Shown here piece after piece: positions 27,744 to 39,954 of a DNA stretch of 64,000 nt. Numbering within the stretch: the first letter of the stretch is position 1; each line of letters opens with the position of its first letter. The translations under genes and the position numbers were made by a program. Origin of the DNA: Desulfosporosinus youngiae DSM 17734 (GTDB lineage Bacteria; Bacillota; Desulfitobacteriia; Desulfitobacteriales; Desulfitobacteriaceae); NCBI RefSeq assembly GCF_000244895.1, contig NZ_CM001441.1, positions 3,996,198-4,060,197 of the forward strand. Reading direction: 5' to 3'. The notes under the pieces were generated by a model. It ran no database searches and was not told the origin of the DNA. It saw nothing but the letters and a program-made list of their open reading frames with translations.

Positions 27744-28829
27744 CTAAGTTGAAAAAATCGTATAGAAAACCGTTCCCTGAATATCTGTTTTAAACTTAAA
27801 GACAGCTCCATGTCTCTGGGCTATTCCTGCTGAGATAGCCAGGCCAAGTCCTGTTCCGCTATCCTTTGTTGTGAAAAATGGCGTACCTACCTTTTCTTGT
27901 ATTTCTTTAGGAATTCCTTTTCCCTGGTCCTTAATCGCCAACACAACTTTATCATTCTCCTGAAAGGTACTAATTGTAACACTGCCTTGCTCCGGGGTGG
28001 CATCCAAACCATTACGTACAAGATTTAAAATAAGCTGCTTTATTTCGTTTTCGTTAATCATAATTTCAGGCAATTTATTCAGATCAGCAACAACTTCTTT
28101 ATTATGGTTATAGGCATCAGCTTGAAGCATCGGTAATACTTTATTAATCACTTCGTTTAAGTTCTGAGCTACAATATTATCCGAGTTTGCTTTAGCTAAG
28201 GATAAAAAATCCGTAATAATGGTATTGGCACGATCAATCTCGGAAATCATTAAATCCATATATTCCTTATCTTGGGCATATTTTGGTTTTGTTATGAAAA
28301 TCTGTAAGAATCCTTTAACCGAAGTCAGAGGATTCCTTATCTCATGGCTAATTCCGGCAGCTAGCTGACCAATAAGGTTAAGTCGTTCTAAACGGTCCAA
28401 CTCTTGTTGTTGGCGTTTAGACTCAGAAATATCTCTAAAAAACACAGTCAGACCTTCCATATAGGGGTATGCATGAAATTCATGGTCCCGATCAGGATCT
28501 GCCAGCCCTCCCGCTTCCCAATGAACCGATTCATTCTGGGACATAGCTTGGTGCATTTTTTCGAACGATAATGGATTTAAATCCTTTGGAAACACTTCCC
28601 AGATCGATTTTCCTAAAATTTCGGTATCTTTATCTTTGATAACTTTTTTAATCTTATAATTTACAAATGTAAACTGCCAATTTCGATCTAATGCATAAAA
28701 GCCATCAGAAATTCCTTCCATTATCTTAATAATCTGGATCTTTGATGATTTTAATTCTGCGTTTGCCTGTTTCAAGCAATCAGTGTAATAAGTAATCTGG
28801 GATAATACAGATTCTAATTCGGGAAGCTT
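27744..28829 (-). pseudogene. C-terminal part of an IS-split sensor histidine kinase (PAS-HisKA-HATPase)
   Basis: This fragment encodes a PAS domain (ISDGFYALDRNWQFTFVN), then a HisKA domain with the phospho-acceptor His in GISHEIRNPLTSVKGF, then a HATPase with N box ILNLVRNGLDAT and G box TGLGLAISAG. The HisKA motif resembles KinB/sporulation-type kinases. The reading frame continues upstream through 28829 to the IS boundary. After excision of the 1668-bp IS and one AATT copy it joins the N-terminal fragment in frame (ATA GTA ATT AAG CTT), giving one protein of about 592 residues. A TTG at 28775 could give a soluble fragment, but it has no good ribosome binding site. Confidence 0.88.
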
Positions 28830-28833
28830 AATT

Positions 28834-30501
28834 AGGGCTTGCTAACCGAATCCTTTTTATTCGTTCGATTACGCAAATACACCAATATCTGTAATTTGAA
28901 AATACCTCTTCAAAATTTGGACAAAAAGAACCCTGAGCTTATGCTCCAAGTTCATGACAAAGAATTGCATGCTAATCATGCACTCTGCTGTTTCTTTCAA
29001 TTTAGCATAAACACGATCAAGGCCATATTTCCTTTTACCCTCGCCAAACTTGCCTTCTACAGCATTACGCATCTTGGCATCCATCCGTTCAATGGCCTTC
29101 TCTACTTTTTTCAGGGCATCTCCTGAGGGCCTGCCTAGTTTGGGACCGCTGAGCCGGATGTTGTGGTTTTTGCAATACGCCAGATTTTTGCGGTTACGGT
29201 ATATCTTGTCGGCCAGCACCGCCTCAGGATAGCATCCATTACGGGCTCTGTAACGCTCTACGCTATCTATCAATGTTTCTGCTTCATTAAACGCGTCCCA
29301 AGACAATTTTTCGATGCGGCAGAATCCCTTCTCGATGCTTATGGCTACCTTAGCCCCGAATTCTACTTTGGCACTGGCTTTGCCGCGTACAATCGGTCGG
29401 ACATGATCCTGATAGAGGTTGACGATTCGATCCGGTATCTGATGTTGTTTTGTCTTATACATTGTTTCCTGCTGCTCAATTACGGTTCGAATGGTTTCCA
29501 ATAACTTGACTTGTCGGTTGCTTAAGGCTTCAAAGCCTGAGGGAATTTCTTTCAGCATTTGGTCAACGTGGCGAAGGTTTCTTTTACAATATTGCAATTG
29601 CTGCTTGATGCCTTTTCTAAGTTGCTTCTTTCTCGGACTCCGCTGTTTAGACACACTCAGATAAGCTTTTCTCGCTTTTTCACGGTAAGTTCTCGGCCGT
29701 TTGGTTGCTTTACCCTTCGCTTTATGAAGCGTATCAATGATCTCATCCAGTTTCTCGCGGGATTCGTTAAGCAGTCCGAGGTCTGTCGGATATTTTATAT
29801 CGGCCGGTGTGCAGGTGGCATCAAGGATCAACGTACCTTGATTCGGTTTGGATTCTTCTGAATCAGAGTCAGCAGGGGTTTTCTTCTCTTCCTTATCCGC
29901 ATCCGGAAGATTAGGTCCTTGTTGATCATCATCGTTCTTCTCGGCTTCCTTTTCTAGATGTTTTTGCCGCCCGCTCAGCTAAAGCAATGCGCTCGTTGAT
30001 TTTAGCCATGCGGTCTTTCTTAAAGCGCTTGCGAAATTTCACCAGGGCGACTGGAGTCAAAGGACGAGTCAATTGAAACTCCTTGAGGCCTATGAACCAT
30101 TGGAGATAAGGATTCTCCGTAATCTGCTGAACCGTTTCACGGTCAGTATAACCGCAGCGAGCTTGGATGATTAACGTACCGAGTGCCATGCGGACCGGTT
30201 TGGCCACATTGCCACGGTCACTCGGAAACATATGGGCGTATTCTTTTTCATACTCATCCCAAGGAATTATATTAGCTAATTGAACCCAACGATTTTCGGG
30301 ATCCAGTTTCCCCGAAAAAGGCAGGATGAAATCATCTATGGTTAGCTGGGGACTCGGTTTACGGTACATTTTCAACCTCCAAGTGCACGGTTTTTTTAAT
30401 CTAAATTCATATTTCCTTGCACTAAAGATTCGACGTAAATGCCCAAAAACCCTTGTTAAATCAGGTTTTTCCCTGGCGTTTAGCACTCGTTAGCAAGCCC
30501 T
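28834..30501 (-). mobile_element. IS5-like insertion sequence with intact ends and 4-bp target duplication
   Basis: The element is 1668 bp. Both ends begin AGGGCTTGCTAAC (13-bp perfect terminal inverted repeat) and are bracketed by AATT at 28830-28833 and 30502-30505. It carries one transposase gene of the DUF772/DDE type. It sits inside the sensor kinase gene. A clean target duplication means insertion was recent enough not to have decayed. Confidence 0.93.
28869..30369 (-). pseudogene. IS5/IS1182-like transposase, frameshifted
   Basis: The N-terminal part starts at ATG 30369 after GGAGGTTGAAA and contains the DUF772-type segment (MYRKPSPQLTIDDF, then ALGTLIIQARCGYTDRETVQQI). The C-terminal DDE part starts with LILDATCTPADI (first Asp). 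It continues through a second catalytic region containing VLADKIYRNRKN and ends with the C-terminal Glu-containing EGKFGEGKRKYGL. The two lie in different frames. The shift falls at an A5 run (29960-29964). Deleting one A would fuse them into about 500 residues. The required shift is +1, unlike the common -1 programmed slip, so it is more likely a mutation. Confidence 0.8.
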
Positions 30502-31194
30502 AATTACTATTTGTTCTTTCTTAATATCATTATCCATGATCATCATACTAAACATTTCCAGATAGGATCGGATCTGCTTCATTTGTTTCCTAACGAAGAC
30601 CAAAAATAGTGCGGGCAAACCTAATATTAGGATCATGATCCCGCCCACTTCACGTGCCGAGTTGACAATAATATCAGCATTTTTAGCACAGGCCCAAGCA
30701 TACCCTACAATTTTCTGATGATTATAAACAGGAAGACTTACTGTAATAAAGCTGTAATTACTCCATGTAATATTCTGGAATTCTCTTTTCAGCCCTAAGT
30801 TAGCGCGAATTTGATCTGCAATATCATTTATTGACAGATTTTCTATTGTCACTATTGAATCTGATCCAAGATCGTAATAGCCATTATAGAAGCCGTCATA
30901 TTTATTACTCTCCACTGAGCTTAGGAGTTCCCTTATGTTCGTCTTTTTTTGATCGACATTTAACTTACCTTGATCTATTGATTCAATTTGGTCAACCTGG
31001 GATTGAATTTCTGATTGTATATCTGAAGCAATTAGTAACAACTGTCCATAGGTTTTTACGCTTTCTTTATTCCAATAATTTTGCCCATAGAGAAGCCAAA
31101 AGGCAATAAGAAAAAGAGAAACGCTTATGGTCATTTTATATAGTGTCATTTGAATAATAGACTGTTTGCTTTTAAAATCTTTTAGATTAAACAT
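30490..31194 (-). pseudogene. N-terminal part of the IS-split sensor kinase (membrane sensor)
   Basis: The fragment starts at ATG 31194 after GGAGG. One membrane segment lies near residues 23-40 (ISVSLFLIAFWLLYG). A predicted extracytoplasmic domain of about 135 residues follows, then a second membrane segment (GGIMILILGLPALFLVFV) and a linker. Native sequence ends at codon ATT (30502). The last residues RAC and the stop come from the IS end. In the intact gene this would be the sensor of the PAS/HisKA kinase. It is encoded 90 bases after agrD, suggesting a receptor for the peptide, though it is not a classical AgrC-type polytopic sensor. Confidence 0.88.
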
Positions 31195-31234
31195 TATATC
31201 CTCCAACTGCTACAATCAAAAATCCATGAAATTT

Positions 31235-31262
31235 AAAAGCTGGGTTGTTGTTCCCAGCTTTT
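31235..31262 (-). terminator. Hairpin between agrD and the kinase gene
   Basis: AAAAGCTGGG and CCCAGCTTTT flank an 8-base loop. The T-rich distal arm on the minus strand suggests partial termination, which would favour the peptide and processing genes over the kinase. Confidence 0.6.
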
Positions 31263-31284
31263 AATGTTTTTTTGAAACTTCAGG

Positions 31285-31407
31285 TTATTTTCTTAATGCT
31301 TTCGGAGTATTTGGTTGGTATCCGATCCATCCGCATGCAAAAACAGAGGTCGCGCTAGCCAGAACCATTAACAGTGAAGCAATTGCCAAATAGATACTCT
31401 TTTTCAT
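31285..31407 (-). CDS. agrD: Cyclic lactone autoinducer peptide precursor (AgrD-like), 40 aa
   Basis: A short gene. The 40-residue product begins MKKSIYLAIASLLMVLASAT, a positively charged and hydrophobic leader. It continues with SVFACGWIGYQPNTPKALRK, matching the AxACxWxxYQPxxPxxLxK pattern I recall for clostridial autoinducer precursors. Cys25 would form the thiolactone. It overlaps the agrB stop by ATGA, so the two are translationally coupled. After processing by AgrB it would be released as a cyclic quorum-sensing signal. The exact ring size cannot be read from sequence. Confidence 0.9.
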   Translation of the reverse strand: MKKSIYLAIASLLMVLASATSVFACGWIGYQPNTPKALRK

Positions 31408-31994
31408 ATGCTCTTCTTCACCTCTTTTCTATTAAAAATTGGTAGCAAGGTTATACTTTGATAAAGTAAACCTAGAACCGCACTGACAATTATTAACGGA
31501 TCATTCGTTAACCTAATCAGCAAAAGCGAGATTATTATAAAACCCAGAGATGAAATTTTAAGCACAATTTGAAGTTTTTTAGAGTTAATTGGCTTGGCGG
31601 GGCTATCAACGGGTGCCAAGATAAGGACTAATAAAAAAGCTATACCAGTGACGGTTAAAAGACTAGTTTGATTTAATAATTCATATATAAATAGTAATTT
31701 CGCGGATATCCCGATAGTACAATAGGCAATCGTCCCGAAAAGCAAGCATTTTAAAGGGGTATTAAAGTGGGCACCTCCAGATAACCTCCGCAATGTACCC
31801 CCAAATAGTACCGCGATAACCGTTGGCTTTAAAACATTTAAAAAATAGGCTAAACAAACTACCATGATTGTACCAATAATCGACAACAACGTTGTATATA
31901 TAGCATAAGATATAATTTCTTTTTCATCCCCAATGAAATCCAGTTCCTCAGTTAACCCTTTAGCAAGCTTTTCACTAATAACAGCGAACTTCAT
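31404..31994 (-). CDS. agrB: AgrB-type autoinducer-processing membrane protease
   Basis: 196 residues starting at ATG 31994 after AGAGGGG. The catalytic His and Cys are in RRLSGGAHFNTPLKC, the family hallmark. Several membrane segments follow, ending RKEVKKSI. AgrB cleaves the C-terminal tail of AgrD and forms the thiolactone. The start overlaps the preceding gene and the stop overlaps agrD, each by ATGA. The longer upstream open frame (to 32147) overlaps the membrane-protein gene and lacks a ribosome site. Confidence 0.93.
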   Translation of the reverse strand: MKFAVISEKLAKGLTEELDFIGDEKEIISYAIYTTLLSIIGTIMVVCLAYFLNVLKPTVIAVLFGGTLRRLSGGAHFNTPLKCLLFGTIAYCTIGISAKLLFIYELLNQTSLLTVTGIAFLLVLILAPVDSPAKPINSKKLQIVLKISSLGFIIISLLLIRLTNDPLIIVSAVLGLLYQSITLLPIFNRKEVKKSI

Positions 31995-32443
31995 CCCGGA
32001 TCCCCTCTTTTTATGCATTTCCTTACTATAAAAGCTAATATAAATAAGCCAACAATTTGAGGTAACAATATCAGAATTCTCGTGATTGAATCTGTTAAAA
32101 AGGTTTCCATGGAGACTCCAAAAAAAGACATTAGAAATGAGATGCATACAGTCTCTAATATTATTAAGGCTAAGAAACTGATTAGGCTAGCAATTAGGGA
32201 TAAACTGAAATCTCCACCAGATTTAGTTAATAATGAAAATAACAAGAGAATTATTAGAATAGTATGTACTCCAAAAGGTATAGGAAATAGTCTCACCACA
32301 TAGGCACTAAACGCTAAACCAATACCAATTAGGATAATTCTACTCCATTTGATAGGTAACTTGGCAATTACAAAAGCTAACGTAGTAACGGCTATTTGTT
32401 CAGGTATTCCTTGCAACAGAAAAATAACAAATGGAATATTGAT
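31991..32443 (-). CDS. agr-associated polytopic membrane protein (about 150 aa)
   Basis: About 141-150 residues with four or five hydrophobic helices and a basic C terminus (VRKCIKRGDPG). It overlaps agrB by ATGA and is the first gene of the agr unit. I recognise no catalytic motif. It resembles the membrane part of an AgrC-like receptor lacking its kinase domain, but this is only an impression. The start is unusual. The only standard start in frame is TTG 32416, with no ribosome site nearby. GAAAGGGTGA lies about 7 bases before ATC at 32443, giving M-N-I-P. That would be a rare non-ATG start or a mutated ATG. Confidence 0.7.
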   Translation of the reverse strand: MNIPFVIFLLQGIPEQIAVTTLAFVIAKLPIKWSRIILIGIGLAFSAYVVRLFPIPFGVHTILIILLLFSLLTKSGGDFSLSLIASLISFLALIILETVCISFLMSFFGVSMETFLTDSITRILILLPQIVGLFILAFIVRKCIKRGDPG

Positions 32444-36283: not shown

Positions 36284-37384
36284 CTAAGGGCCCGCCAAAT
36301 AATAGTTACCGGAAGAAGCTTCTATAATAAAGTAGGTCAGCTCGCACATTAAATCTATATATGTTTCTCTATCGACATATTTCCCATTACAATCAATCAA
36401 TAGCCGCACGAGAGGGCGTGTCGGAAAACTGGTCGGTACAGCTGCAACCATGCCAATTTCCCCAGTATTAAGGGTTACTAAGGTATCTTTAGGATAAAGA
36501 TTTAAGGATTTTCGGAATGCCCGGACAACAACCGGATTAAATTCCTTTTCCATGGTTAAAATCATTTCGAGAGCATGATAAGGTGGAAGTGCTTTACGGT
36601 ATGGCCTGTCTGCGGTTAGAGCATCATAAACATCAGCCACAGCAATGATTTGGGCTTCCAGGCAAATTCCGGATCCGCTAAGTCCATCGGGATAGCCACT
36701 CCCGCTCCAACGTTCGTGATGTTGACGTACTGTAGTTAAGATACGGGGCAAAACCTTCGTATTTCGAAGCATTGCTTCACCTTCAAGGGGATGCTGCCGG
36801 ATAATGCTTACTTCATGTTTGCTCAATGGCCCCGGCTTATTCAAAATCTCATAAGGTACTTTAATCTTGCCAATGTCATGAAGGATAGCACCCAGCGTGA
36901 GATACTTTAAACGCTGCCCCTTATAACCTAATTCCCTTGCCGATAATGTCGAGAGAATAGCAACATTAACAGAGTGAACAAACGTACAATAATCATGTTC
37001 TTTAAAACTCGCTAAATTGACTCGCAGAGAATTGGTATCTATGTAAATACATTTATCGTTAATCTCCTTAATAATCCACTCGATAATTACCATAGTCTGA
37101 GAAATCTGCTCGGGAGTGATCAACTCAGCATCATGATAAATACTCCAGATTGAACCTATAATATCCCAATACAGGTCTTTGGAAAAGGGCTTAATATTAG
37201 CAAACGGCTTTTTCTCAGATTTTAATGTGTATACCTCGCTTCTTGTCAGACGTTCTCTGATCCATTCTGTCACGAGTTGCCCCCTTGTCAATAACAGAAG
37301 CCCCCTGGCATCGAACAAGTCCATTGGGGCTTGATTTCCTGCCATCAAAAAACCTTGCGGCAACTTTTCTAGAACCAAATTCAT
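36284..37384 (-). CDS. HD-GYP domain cyclic-di-GMP phosphodiesterase
   Basis: 366 residues. The HD-GYP domain spans about 140-300 with HDIGK, HPLEGEAML, HHERWSGSGYPDG and DVYDALTADRPYR. All metal-binding His/Asp and the GYP loop are present, so it should be active in hydrolysing c-di-GMP. The N-terminal 120 residues have no recognised domain. The start at ATG 37384 follows GGAGG. It is 60 bases after the response-regulator gene, suggesting the two act together. Confidence 0.88.
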   Translation of the reverse strand: MNLVLEKLPQGFLMAGNQAPMDLFDARGLLLLTRGQLVTEWIRERLTRSEVYTLKSEKKPFANIKPFSKDLYWDIIGSIWSIYHDAELITPEQISQTMVIIEWIIKEINDKCIYIDTNSLRVNLASFKEHDYCTFVHSVNVAILSTLSARELGYKGQRLKYLTLGAILHDIGKIKVPYEILNKPGPLSKHEVSIIRQHPLEGEAMLRNTKVLPRILTTVRQHHERWSGSGYPDGLSGSGICLEAQIIAVADVYDALTADRPYRKALPPYHALEMILTMEKEFNPVVVRAFRKSLNLYPKDTLVTLNTGEIGMVAAVPTSFPTRPLVRLLIDCNGKYVDRETYIDLMCELTYFIIEASSGNYYLAGP

Positions 37385-37445
37385 CAAATACCTCCAGATT
37401 ACACGCTCATACTAATTTTTCTTCATTTGCTCAGCCCAGCCGGAA

Positions 37446-37850
37446 TTAATTTAAACTCCTTCCGGCGTCCCTCTGTTCCAATCTCGCCCCTGCTAACGTT
37501 TGCTCAACTGTTTTGAGCAAAACGTCTACGTCCAAAGGCTTACTTAAAAAACTCTGAACACCCAAACAGCGGGCAACGTCCTCCAGATCAGATTCTGCAC
37601 TTATCATGATTACCGGGATATTTTTAGCGTAATAGTCCTCACTAAGCCGGGATAATACTTGCAGCCCTGTCATTGCCGGCATCCTATTATCTAATAGAAT
37701 GAGAGATGGGCGGTTTAAGGATATTGCAAGGTCCAAACATTCAGACCCGTTTGCCGCCATTTTAACGTTATAGCCTGATTCCTCCAAAACTTTATGAATA
37801 AGAAGTCTAACCCCATATTGGTCGTCAACAACTAGTATATATCCCGACAA
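37446..37850 (-). CDS. Single-domain response regulator
   Basis: About 134 residues consisting only of a receiver domain: acidic pocket VVDDQ, phospho-acceptor Asp in LILLDNRMP (about residue 54), Ser in MISAES, and Lys in FLSKPLD. No output domain. GGGAGGAAGAAAA lies before TTG 37850. It probably controls the HD-GYP protein encoded next. Confidence 0.85.
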   Translation of the reverse strand: MSGYILVVDDQYGVRLLIHKVLEESGYNVKMAANGSECLDLAISLNRPSLILLDNRMPAMTGLQVLSRLSEDYYAKNIPVIMISAESDLEDVARCLGVQSFLSKPLDVDVLLKTVEQTLAGARLEQRDAGRSLN

Positions 37851-37939
37851 TTTTCTTCCTCCCAACTGAACATTCTATTAATACCTCCGACTAATTTTTT
37901 ATAGATATTGGTAAAATGCCTAAATGTATTCTATAACTA

Positions 37940-38734: not shown

Positions 38735-39954
38735 TTATGCTATTTGTTCTTGAACACTTACTACTAAACCCAGTGACTCCAATTTTTTGATCGAATTTTT
38801 AATCAAACTATCTTTTTTACGTTCATCAAAATAATTGTAGCCTAGATCCACATATTCTTGTTTTCGCGTTAACAAGATATGTACAAGAGACAAGATTGTA
38901 TGTCCTACAGCTATCGAAGCCTTATTTTTTCCACGTCGGGCTGCTATCCGATGATATTGTGCCGATAAGTAGTTATTTTTTTTACGAGCAGCCGCTTTTG
39001 CTGCCTCGGTAAGGGCGCTTCGAAGCTTCTTATTTCCTTTACGCGTCTTTGTGGACTTTTTTTTCCTGCGCTTTCATCATGACCTGGAGTCATCCCTGCC
39101 CACGAACATAAGTGTCCGGGTGTAGGAAATCGTGACATATCTGTACCAACTTCAGCAATAATTTGTTCAGCAGTTCTTTTTCCAACTCCGGGTATAGAAT
39201 CCAATAACTTCAGTTCTTCCGCAAAAGGGGTCATACGTTTCTCAATTTCTTCGTCCAATTTACTAATTAGTTCATTGAGGTAATCGATATGAGCTAATTG
39301 CTTCTCAAGCATGAATAATTGATGGGCTCCAAGTAATCCTTCTAGCGCAAGTTTCAAATCTTCCTTTTTATCCTTTAGTTTCTTTAGAGCAAAATCCGCT
39401 AAAACAGAAGTGTCTTCCTCTCCTTTAATCATAGCTTCCAACATGTTTCGCCCAGATACACCCAACACATTTGAAGCCACAGAGGATAGTTTTATGTTCC
39501 CCCCCTCTAATACTTTCTGTAGGCGATTCACTTCTCGCGTTCTTTCTTCAACGATGCTTCGCCGATATCGAACGACCTCTTTTAATTCTCTTTGATCCCG
39601 GTTCGGAATAAAACTTCCTTGGACCAAACCATGACGCAGTAAACGTGCAATCCACTCGGCATCTTTAACATCCGTCTTTCGTCCCGGCACAGTTTTAATA
39701 TGCTGGGCATTAACTACCATCGGTTGTAGATCCTCTGTCTCTAAGAGGTTATAGATCGGTTTCCAGTAATCACCTGTACTCTCCATCGCGACATGGGAGC
39801 ATCGGTTGTCTTTTACCCAATCAACTAGTTCGATTAGGTTTCGAGTCATTGTTGAAAATGTATGAATCTCCTTTCCTTTGGGGGTAATGATGCAGGCTGT
39901 AATACTTTTTTTATGCACATCCAGTCCGCAACATCGTTCATGCAATACTTCCAT
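38735..39954 (-). pseudogene. IS110 recombinase, frameshifted near the C terminus
   Basis: The N-terminal DEDD domain begins CGLDVHKKSITACI and includes AMESTGDYWKP, KTDVKDAEWIARLL and a coiled segment. The C-terminal Tnp_20 domain has LDSIPGVGKRTAEQIIAEVG and CSWAGMTPGHDESAGKK, with the conserved Ser. The frame breaks at an A8 run (39057-39064). With nine A it would continue as KKKSTKTRKGNKKLRSAL and on to a stop at 38735-38737, giving about 406 residues, the normal length. An A AAA AAG-type slip of -1 would also restore it, so a programmed shift is possible though not usual for IS110. Confidence 0.85.

Follow-up and report, generated by a model that had tools for sequence, protein, structure and literature searches.

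An agr-type locus of Desulfosporosinus youngiae with an apparently split AgrC receptor and a kinase gene interrupted by an IS5-type element

The staphylococcal agrBDCA system consists of a membrane peptidase with a His/Cys pair (AgrB), a peptide precursor (AgrD), a receptor (AgrC) in which the sensor helices and a GHKL kinase belong to the same protein, and a LytTR regulator (AgrA). Many clostridial agrBD loci have no recognisable agrC and how the peptide is sensed there is an open question; no AgrC homologue is found in Clostridium perfringens (PMC7492741) and, for agr1 of Clostridioides difficile, neither the sensing pathway nor the route by which AgrD1 promotes sporulation is known (PMC11210211). 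In C. perfringens the agr operon also includes two upstream hypothetical genes, and an agrB mutant was complemented by agrBD together with these genes and not by agrBD alone (PMC2706048). Further terms of comparison are the sporulation kinases KinB and KinD, which are orphan kinases of the HisKA/HATPase type.

The locus described here, from the sulfate-reducing soil bacterium Desulfosporosinus youngiae DSM 17734, shares with agrBDCA the AgrB His/Cys peptidase, the AgrD precursor, and a multi-helix AgrC-like sensor domain; in contrast, its sensor and transmitter are separate proteins, the transmitter is of the PAS-HisKA and not of the GHKL type, agrB is preceded by the gene of the leading membrane protein (Lead), and AgrA is missing. 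AgrB and AgrD each belong to their respective family, and the locus as a whole would work like agrBDCA; it nevertheless falls outside that system as defined, since a one-piece AgrC (sensor helices plus GHKL kinase) and a LytTR regulator were both searched for in the locus and are absent. The likeness to the C. perfringens and C. difficile agr1 loci lies in the presence of agrBD without a full agrC and, for C. perfringens, in the existence of upstream genes in the operon, but the locus of D. youngiae includes the gene of a kinase of its own, and its upstream membrane protein can be identified as one half of AgrC. With KinB and KinD the kinase has in common the orphan HisKA/HATPase organisation and the H-box HEIRNPLTSVKGFLQ, whereas it is coupled to agrBD and remains below the cut-off of the KinD equivalog model (168.9 bits against NF053867, cut-off 775). 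A further agr type, with a GHKL kinase, is present besides this one in some Desulfosporosinus (loci L226 and L227), in the order LytTR regulator, Lead, 286-aa kinase, agrB, and agrD, that is, a plain split AgrC; here too a stand-alone sensor half of the Lead family lies beside agrB, but the transmitter is the ordinary GHKL half of AgrC and the LytTR regulator is present.

The features found in the window, i.e., the whole stretch of 64,000 nucleotides analysed, are collected in Table 1. The agr-type locus on the minus strand, proposed in the initial annotation, is real by the curated cut-offs that both of its proteins pass: AgrB matches PF04647 with 123.5 bits (cut-off 23) and AgrD matches TIGR04223, the AgrD model of NCBI, with 33.9 bits (cut-off 19). 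AgrB contains LSGGAHFNTPLKC, and the His and Cys that had been indicated as the catalytic pair are present, 7 residues apart and invariant in 35 of 35 aligned AgrBs, while a few other positions differ from the family consensus. The 40-residue peptide, previously regarded as overlooked, is the product of a genuine agrD gene which is short yet within reach of annotation, since NCBI's own model detects it. The pattern C-x4-[YH]-[QE]-P-x2-P-x2-L is common to 51 distinct relatives, in which the Cys, the Leu, and both prolines never change and YQP hardly does; the four residues following the Cys vary, a pattern that, judged from this alignment, would be expected of a signal with specificity residues. 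A chance origin of the agrD reading frame was ruled out by the 51 distinct relatives, mostly found at the same place behind agrB.

Table 1. Position of the features of the agr locus and of related genes in the window.
Feature	Position	Strand	Description
Lead	31991..32443	-	150 aa, five membrane helices; stop overlaps agrB start (ATGA)
agrB	31404..31994	-	Membrane peptidase processing AgrD; PF04647 match
agrD	31285..31407	-	40-aa precursor, ACGWIGYQPNTPKALRK; predicted ring from Cys of ACGWIGYQP
Hairpin	31233..31264		AAAAGCTGGG...CCCAGCTTTT; between agrD and kinase; terminator-like (terminator scan)
Kinase, N-terminal half	30501..31194	-	TM1, extracellular Cache/PAS-like domain, TM2
Target-site duplication, copy 1	30501..30506		TAATTA
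IS5-type element	28835..30500	-	1666 bp, ends GGGCTTGCTAAC, terminal inverted repeats; NF033578 matches
IS transposase	30369-29929 and 29831-28869	-	Split over two frames
Target-site duplication, copy 2	28829..28834		TAATTA
Kinase, C-terminal half	27744..28834	-	PAS_4, HisKA (HEIRNPLTSVKGFLQ), HATPase_c (Pfam)
Stand-alone receiver, Spo0F-like	37446..37865	-	DDQYGVR; outside the agr operon

The leading gene, agrB, and agrD, all on the minus strand, are coupled in this order by ATGA overlaps, and the neighbours of the locus are genes for a citrate synthase and a SNF2-type helicase. Terminator and promoter scans did not reveal a clear promoter for the operon and the Rfam search gave nothing above threshold. 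The genome encodes a single AgrB, and the AgrBD part of the locus is ordinary. The hairpin that separates agrD from the kinase (9–29 bp) folds at the equivalent place in 19 of the 21 loci examined, with a core of the AGCTGGG/CCCAGCT type in nearly all of them and matching but variable outer arms; it probably reduces read-through, setting a lower level of the kinase.

Lead had been described as an extra membrane protein at the head of the operon; the protein is there, and the end given for it, 32443, coincides with an ATC codon that is aligned to the ATG of its relatives and is, to judge from this comparison, probably the start codon, but it is more than a nameless addition to the operon. It is named by no Pfam or NCBIfam model, its five-helix AF2 model (pLDDT 95.6) found no match below E 2 in a fold search against the PDB and hence no similar solved structure, a viral library returned weak matches only, and no relative was found in plasmid and phage collections. 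However, a profile of 56 Lead relatives matches the first 140 residues of SPOB_a/GHKL kinases of 450–476 aa (best E 2.5e-18), which adjoin agrB and a LytTR-type regulator. In the reverse search, a 452-position profile built from fused AgrC-like kinases matches residues 3–143 of Lead at profile positions 4–145 (E 8e-24); in eight split loci the adjacent kinase genes, coding for 282–300 aa, match positions 172–451, and the sensor genes of loci of this sort match positions 1–153. On this profile evidence Lead shares homology with the five helices that make up the N-terminal half of AgrC-like receptors; in particular, it corresponds to helices 1–5, because the fused proteins add two more membrane helices ahead of the kinase. 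The staphylococcal AgrC model gave a single weak match across the phylum. With the sensor half of AgrC encoded on its own as Lead, reception of the peptide does not have to fall to the kinase.

As for the beginning of the gene, ATA, ATT, or ATC appears to take the place of the ATG of other genera in about eight loci (the window at 32443 and L068, L069, L073, L077, L079, L100, and L105); just upstream there is an in-frame stop and no ATG, GTG, or TTG lies between, the N-terminus being nevertheless conserved. Lead is often duplicated in tandem before agrB in two, once three, diverged copies (loci L066-L090 and L153), which perhaps have different peptide specificities or form a heterodimeric receptor.

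In genome samples of the phylum and of the class of Romboutsia, the Lead family, stand-alone or fused, is present in 149 of 398 and in 41 of 391 genomes, respectively. Among 143 distinct stand-alone copies, 134 have agrB within 1.6 kb, 4 lie at sequence ends, and 5 are without it, a linkage that is inflated because some of the surveyed loci had been collected through agrB; among the loci collected through Lead alone, agrB is adjacent in 43 of 45 and the other two are at contig ends. Such constant proximity, together with the translational coupling to agrB in the window, would also suit a partner of AgrB in the making or export of the peptide, whose likeness to AgrC would reflect a shared peptide-binding surface and not a receptor function, and the need for two upstream genes in the complementation of the C. 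perfringens agrB mutant might be read in the same sense if these belong to the Lead family, although that result could stem from a missing promoter. This role is distinctly unlikely for Lead: where the sensor is fused to the kinase, in eight agrB loci, a separate Lead copy is always missing from the same agr cluster, as expected of a sensor and not of an AgrB helper, which would still be needed there. One of these loci (L154) has two separate Lead copies in a second, neighbouring cluster.

The order Lead, agrB, agrD, and kinase is conserved across Desulfosporosinus and the neighbouring families. Apart from the own genome, 35 of 59 relatives have homologues of the N-terminal half of the kinase (36 of 60 genomes in all), and the close ones adjoin agrB or sit at a contig end, so that the assignment of the kinase to the agr locus is borne out; for loci of this type, relatives with agrBD beside a GHKL receptor and with the kinase in another context were looked for and not encountered. 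The kinase had been described as a downstream PAS/HisKA protein, and PAS_4, HisKA, and HATPase_c are in fact recognised, but the gene is not intact: its halves are separated by an IS5-type element. The element has terminal inverted repeats and a target-site duplication, and five copies, 99–100% identical, are found in the genome (the one in the window and L002-L005), every one of them between 6-bp duplications that read TAATTA at four of the sites and TATTTA at the fifth; if the empty site is restored, the two halves are rejoined in frame as a single frame of 596 codons. All the relatives with a complete kinase gene have one uninterrupted frame of about 600 codons. Two further explanations of the arrangement were discarded, namely the existence of separate sensor and kinase-half genes, excluded by the element, the target duplication, and the intact relatives, and an assembly error, rejected on account of the five copies each with its own flanking duplication. 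The transposase in two frames, seen in the copy of the window, may be due to programmed frameshifting or indicate mobilisation in trans. Another ORF of the window (38944-39954) resembles an IS110-type transposase by sequence.

Since the only kinase of the agr-linked family in the genome is the one cut by the element, the strain is, on sequence grounds, very likely without a functional copy of its dedicated agr reader, and it probably sends an agr signal that it cannot read, representing a natural signal producer with a broken reader. A more general loss, in which an ordinary agr-like locus decays after the insertion and the whole operon is functionless in this strain, is considered improbable: besides the broken kinase, it could invoke the non-standard start codon of Lead and the off-consensus positions of AgrB, but no stop interrupts the frames of Lead, agrB, and agrD, whose invariant residues are retained, the unusual start codon is common to intact relatives, and the near identity of the IS copies marks the insertion as recent.

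The N-terminal half of the kinase comprises about 130 extracellular residues between TM1 and TM2, and its AF2 model (pLDDT 77) finds its nearest solved folds in the sensor domains of WalK/YycG. Because this extracellular domain is Cache/PAS-like, direct binding of the peptide by the kinase is the main rival explanation, with Lead as an accessory or a relic; the succession of TM1, extracellular domain, and TM2 is usual for a ligand-sensing kinase, and the tight linkage to agrBD agrees with it. Nevertheless this explanation appears unlikely, since Cache domains bind mostly small metabolites, Lead is kept everywhere, often duplicated and even in GGDEF-HD-GYP loci devoid of the kinase, and its homology is to the sensor half of AgrC.

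The reading preferred here, with moderate confidence, is therefore that of an agr operon in which AgrC is split and its output half replaced by another, the output being lost or uncoupled in this strain; the receptor apparently consists of two proteins, one a membrane sensor that stands alone and the other the kinase. According to this proposal, AgrB would cut AgrD after the conserved C-x4-YQP core, closing a thiolactone ring on the Cys, and the signal would be secreted; Lead, i.e., helices 1–5 of AgrC as a separate protein, would bind the peptide and act on the kinase whose gene follows agrD, at the membrane part of that protein; this two-helix Cache/PAS/HisKA kinase would stand in for the GHKL transmitter found in classical AgrC and would in turn probably phosphorylate a distant regulator, with Spo0F or Spo0A as the best guess. 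In the strain examined, where a recent insertion of the element divides the kinase between the second membrane helix and the PAS domain, the signal would still be made without being transduced; at most, a soluble and uncontrolled PAS-HisKA fragment might be produced, for which the nearest usual in-frame start is a TTG at 28775.

That the kinase feeds the sporulation phosphorelay, a proposal compatible with the split receptor, is tentative, and its chances are put somewhat below even. The kinase is an orphan with no response regulator alongside, and the nearest solved kinases to its HisKA region are ZraS (131 bits), a Thermotoga kinase (125 bits), and the sporulation kinase KinB (118 bits), so that KinB is among the first three. 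A Spo0F-like gene is also present in the window; the best solved match of its product is Spo0F of Bacillus subtilis (79 bits, against 58.9 for the natural protein other than Spo0F that ranks next), and this receiver is a possible phosphorelay partner of the kinase. Moreover, Desulfotomaculum acetoxidans, another member of the group, has a verified Spo0F/Spo0B relay, and clostridial sporulation is driven by orphan kinases (PMC11210211). On the other hand, HisKA domains of this kind also serve ZraS/AtoS-like systems, and the sequence does not single out a sporulation target, because HisKA is as near to ZraS and the Thermotoga kinase as to KinB and the KinD cut-off is missed; Spo0A, which occurs also in relatives without the kinase, discriminates nothing, being found in 60 of the 60 genomes checked. 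A sporulation output of the kinase is thus plausible on circumstantial support. The Spo0F-like receiver is adjoined by an HD-domain (HD-GYP-like) gene at 36284-37387, on the same strand as the agr operon, and in D. metallidurans (L075) the same kind of receiver and an HD-GYP-like gene lie directly upstream of the agr operon.

Three kinds of output are found beside Lead, agrB, and agrD, namely PAS-HisKA kinases, GGDEF-HD-GYP proteins, and GHKL kinases, either fused or split, which suggests that sensor, peptidase, and peptide are a unit with an exchangeable output. More broadly, there is about an even chance that the widespread and unnamed stand-alone AgrC sensors form with AgrB and AgrD a portable module, acting in trans on outputs of the GHKL, PAS-HisKA, or diguanylate cyclase-HD-GYP type. 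If this is true, cyclic-peptide quorum sensing would have a direct connection with kinases of the sporulation type and with c-di-GMP; a receptor half annotated as hypothetical beside agrB would be a direct and testable answer for a large part of the loci without agrC, and the linked kinases and GGDEF-HD-GYP proteins would name their outputs. A split, output-swapped AgrC receptor appears to be undescribed, a provisional statement in that the literature searched, which mentions neither a split AgrC nor agr loci with PAS-HisKA or GGDEF-HD-GYP partners, leaves most subscription papers outside.

The GGDEF-HD-GYP proteins, of 538–564 aa, are encoded directly behind agrD in Formimonas, Romboutsia, and others, sometimes together with the kinase, and this adjacency suggests that signalling by cyclic peptides may be linked directly to c-di-GMP; agrD is followed by such a gene in loci L144, L145, L146, L151, L152, L153, L155, L163, and L164. 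In several Clostridia Lead is preceded by a further membrane protein of 180–200 aa with a motif like AKIKGYK (L095:1099-1683, L207:1907-2476, L210:898-1443, L217:782-1378, and L220:460-1011), so that agrB there follows a pair of genes, this one and Lead, an arrangement also seen in C. perfringens.
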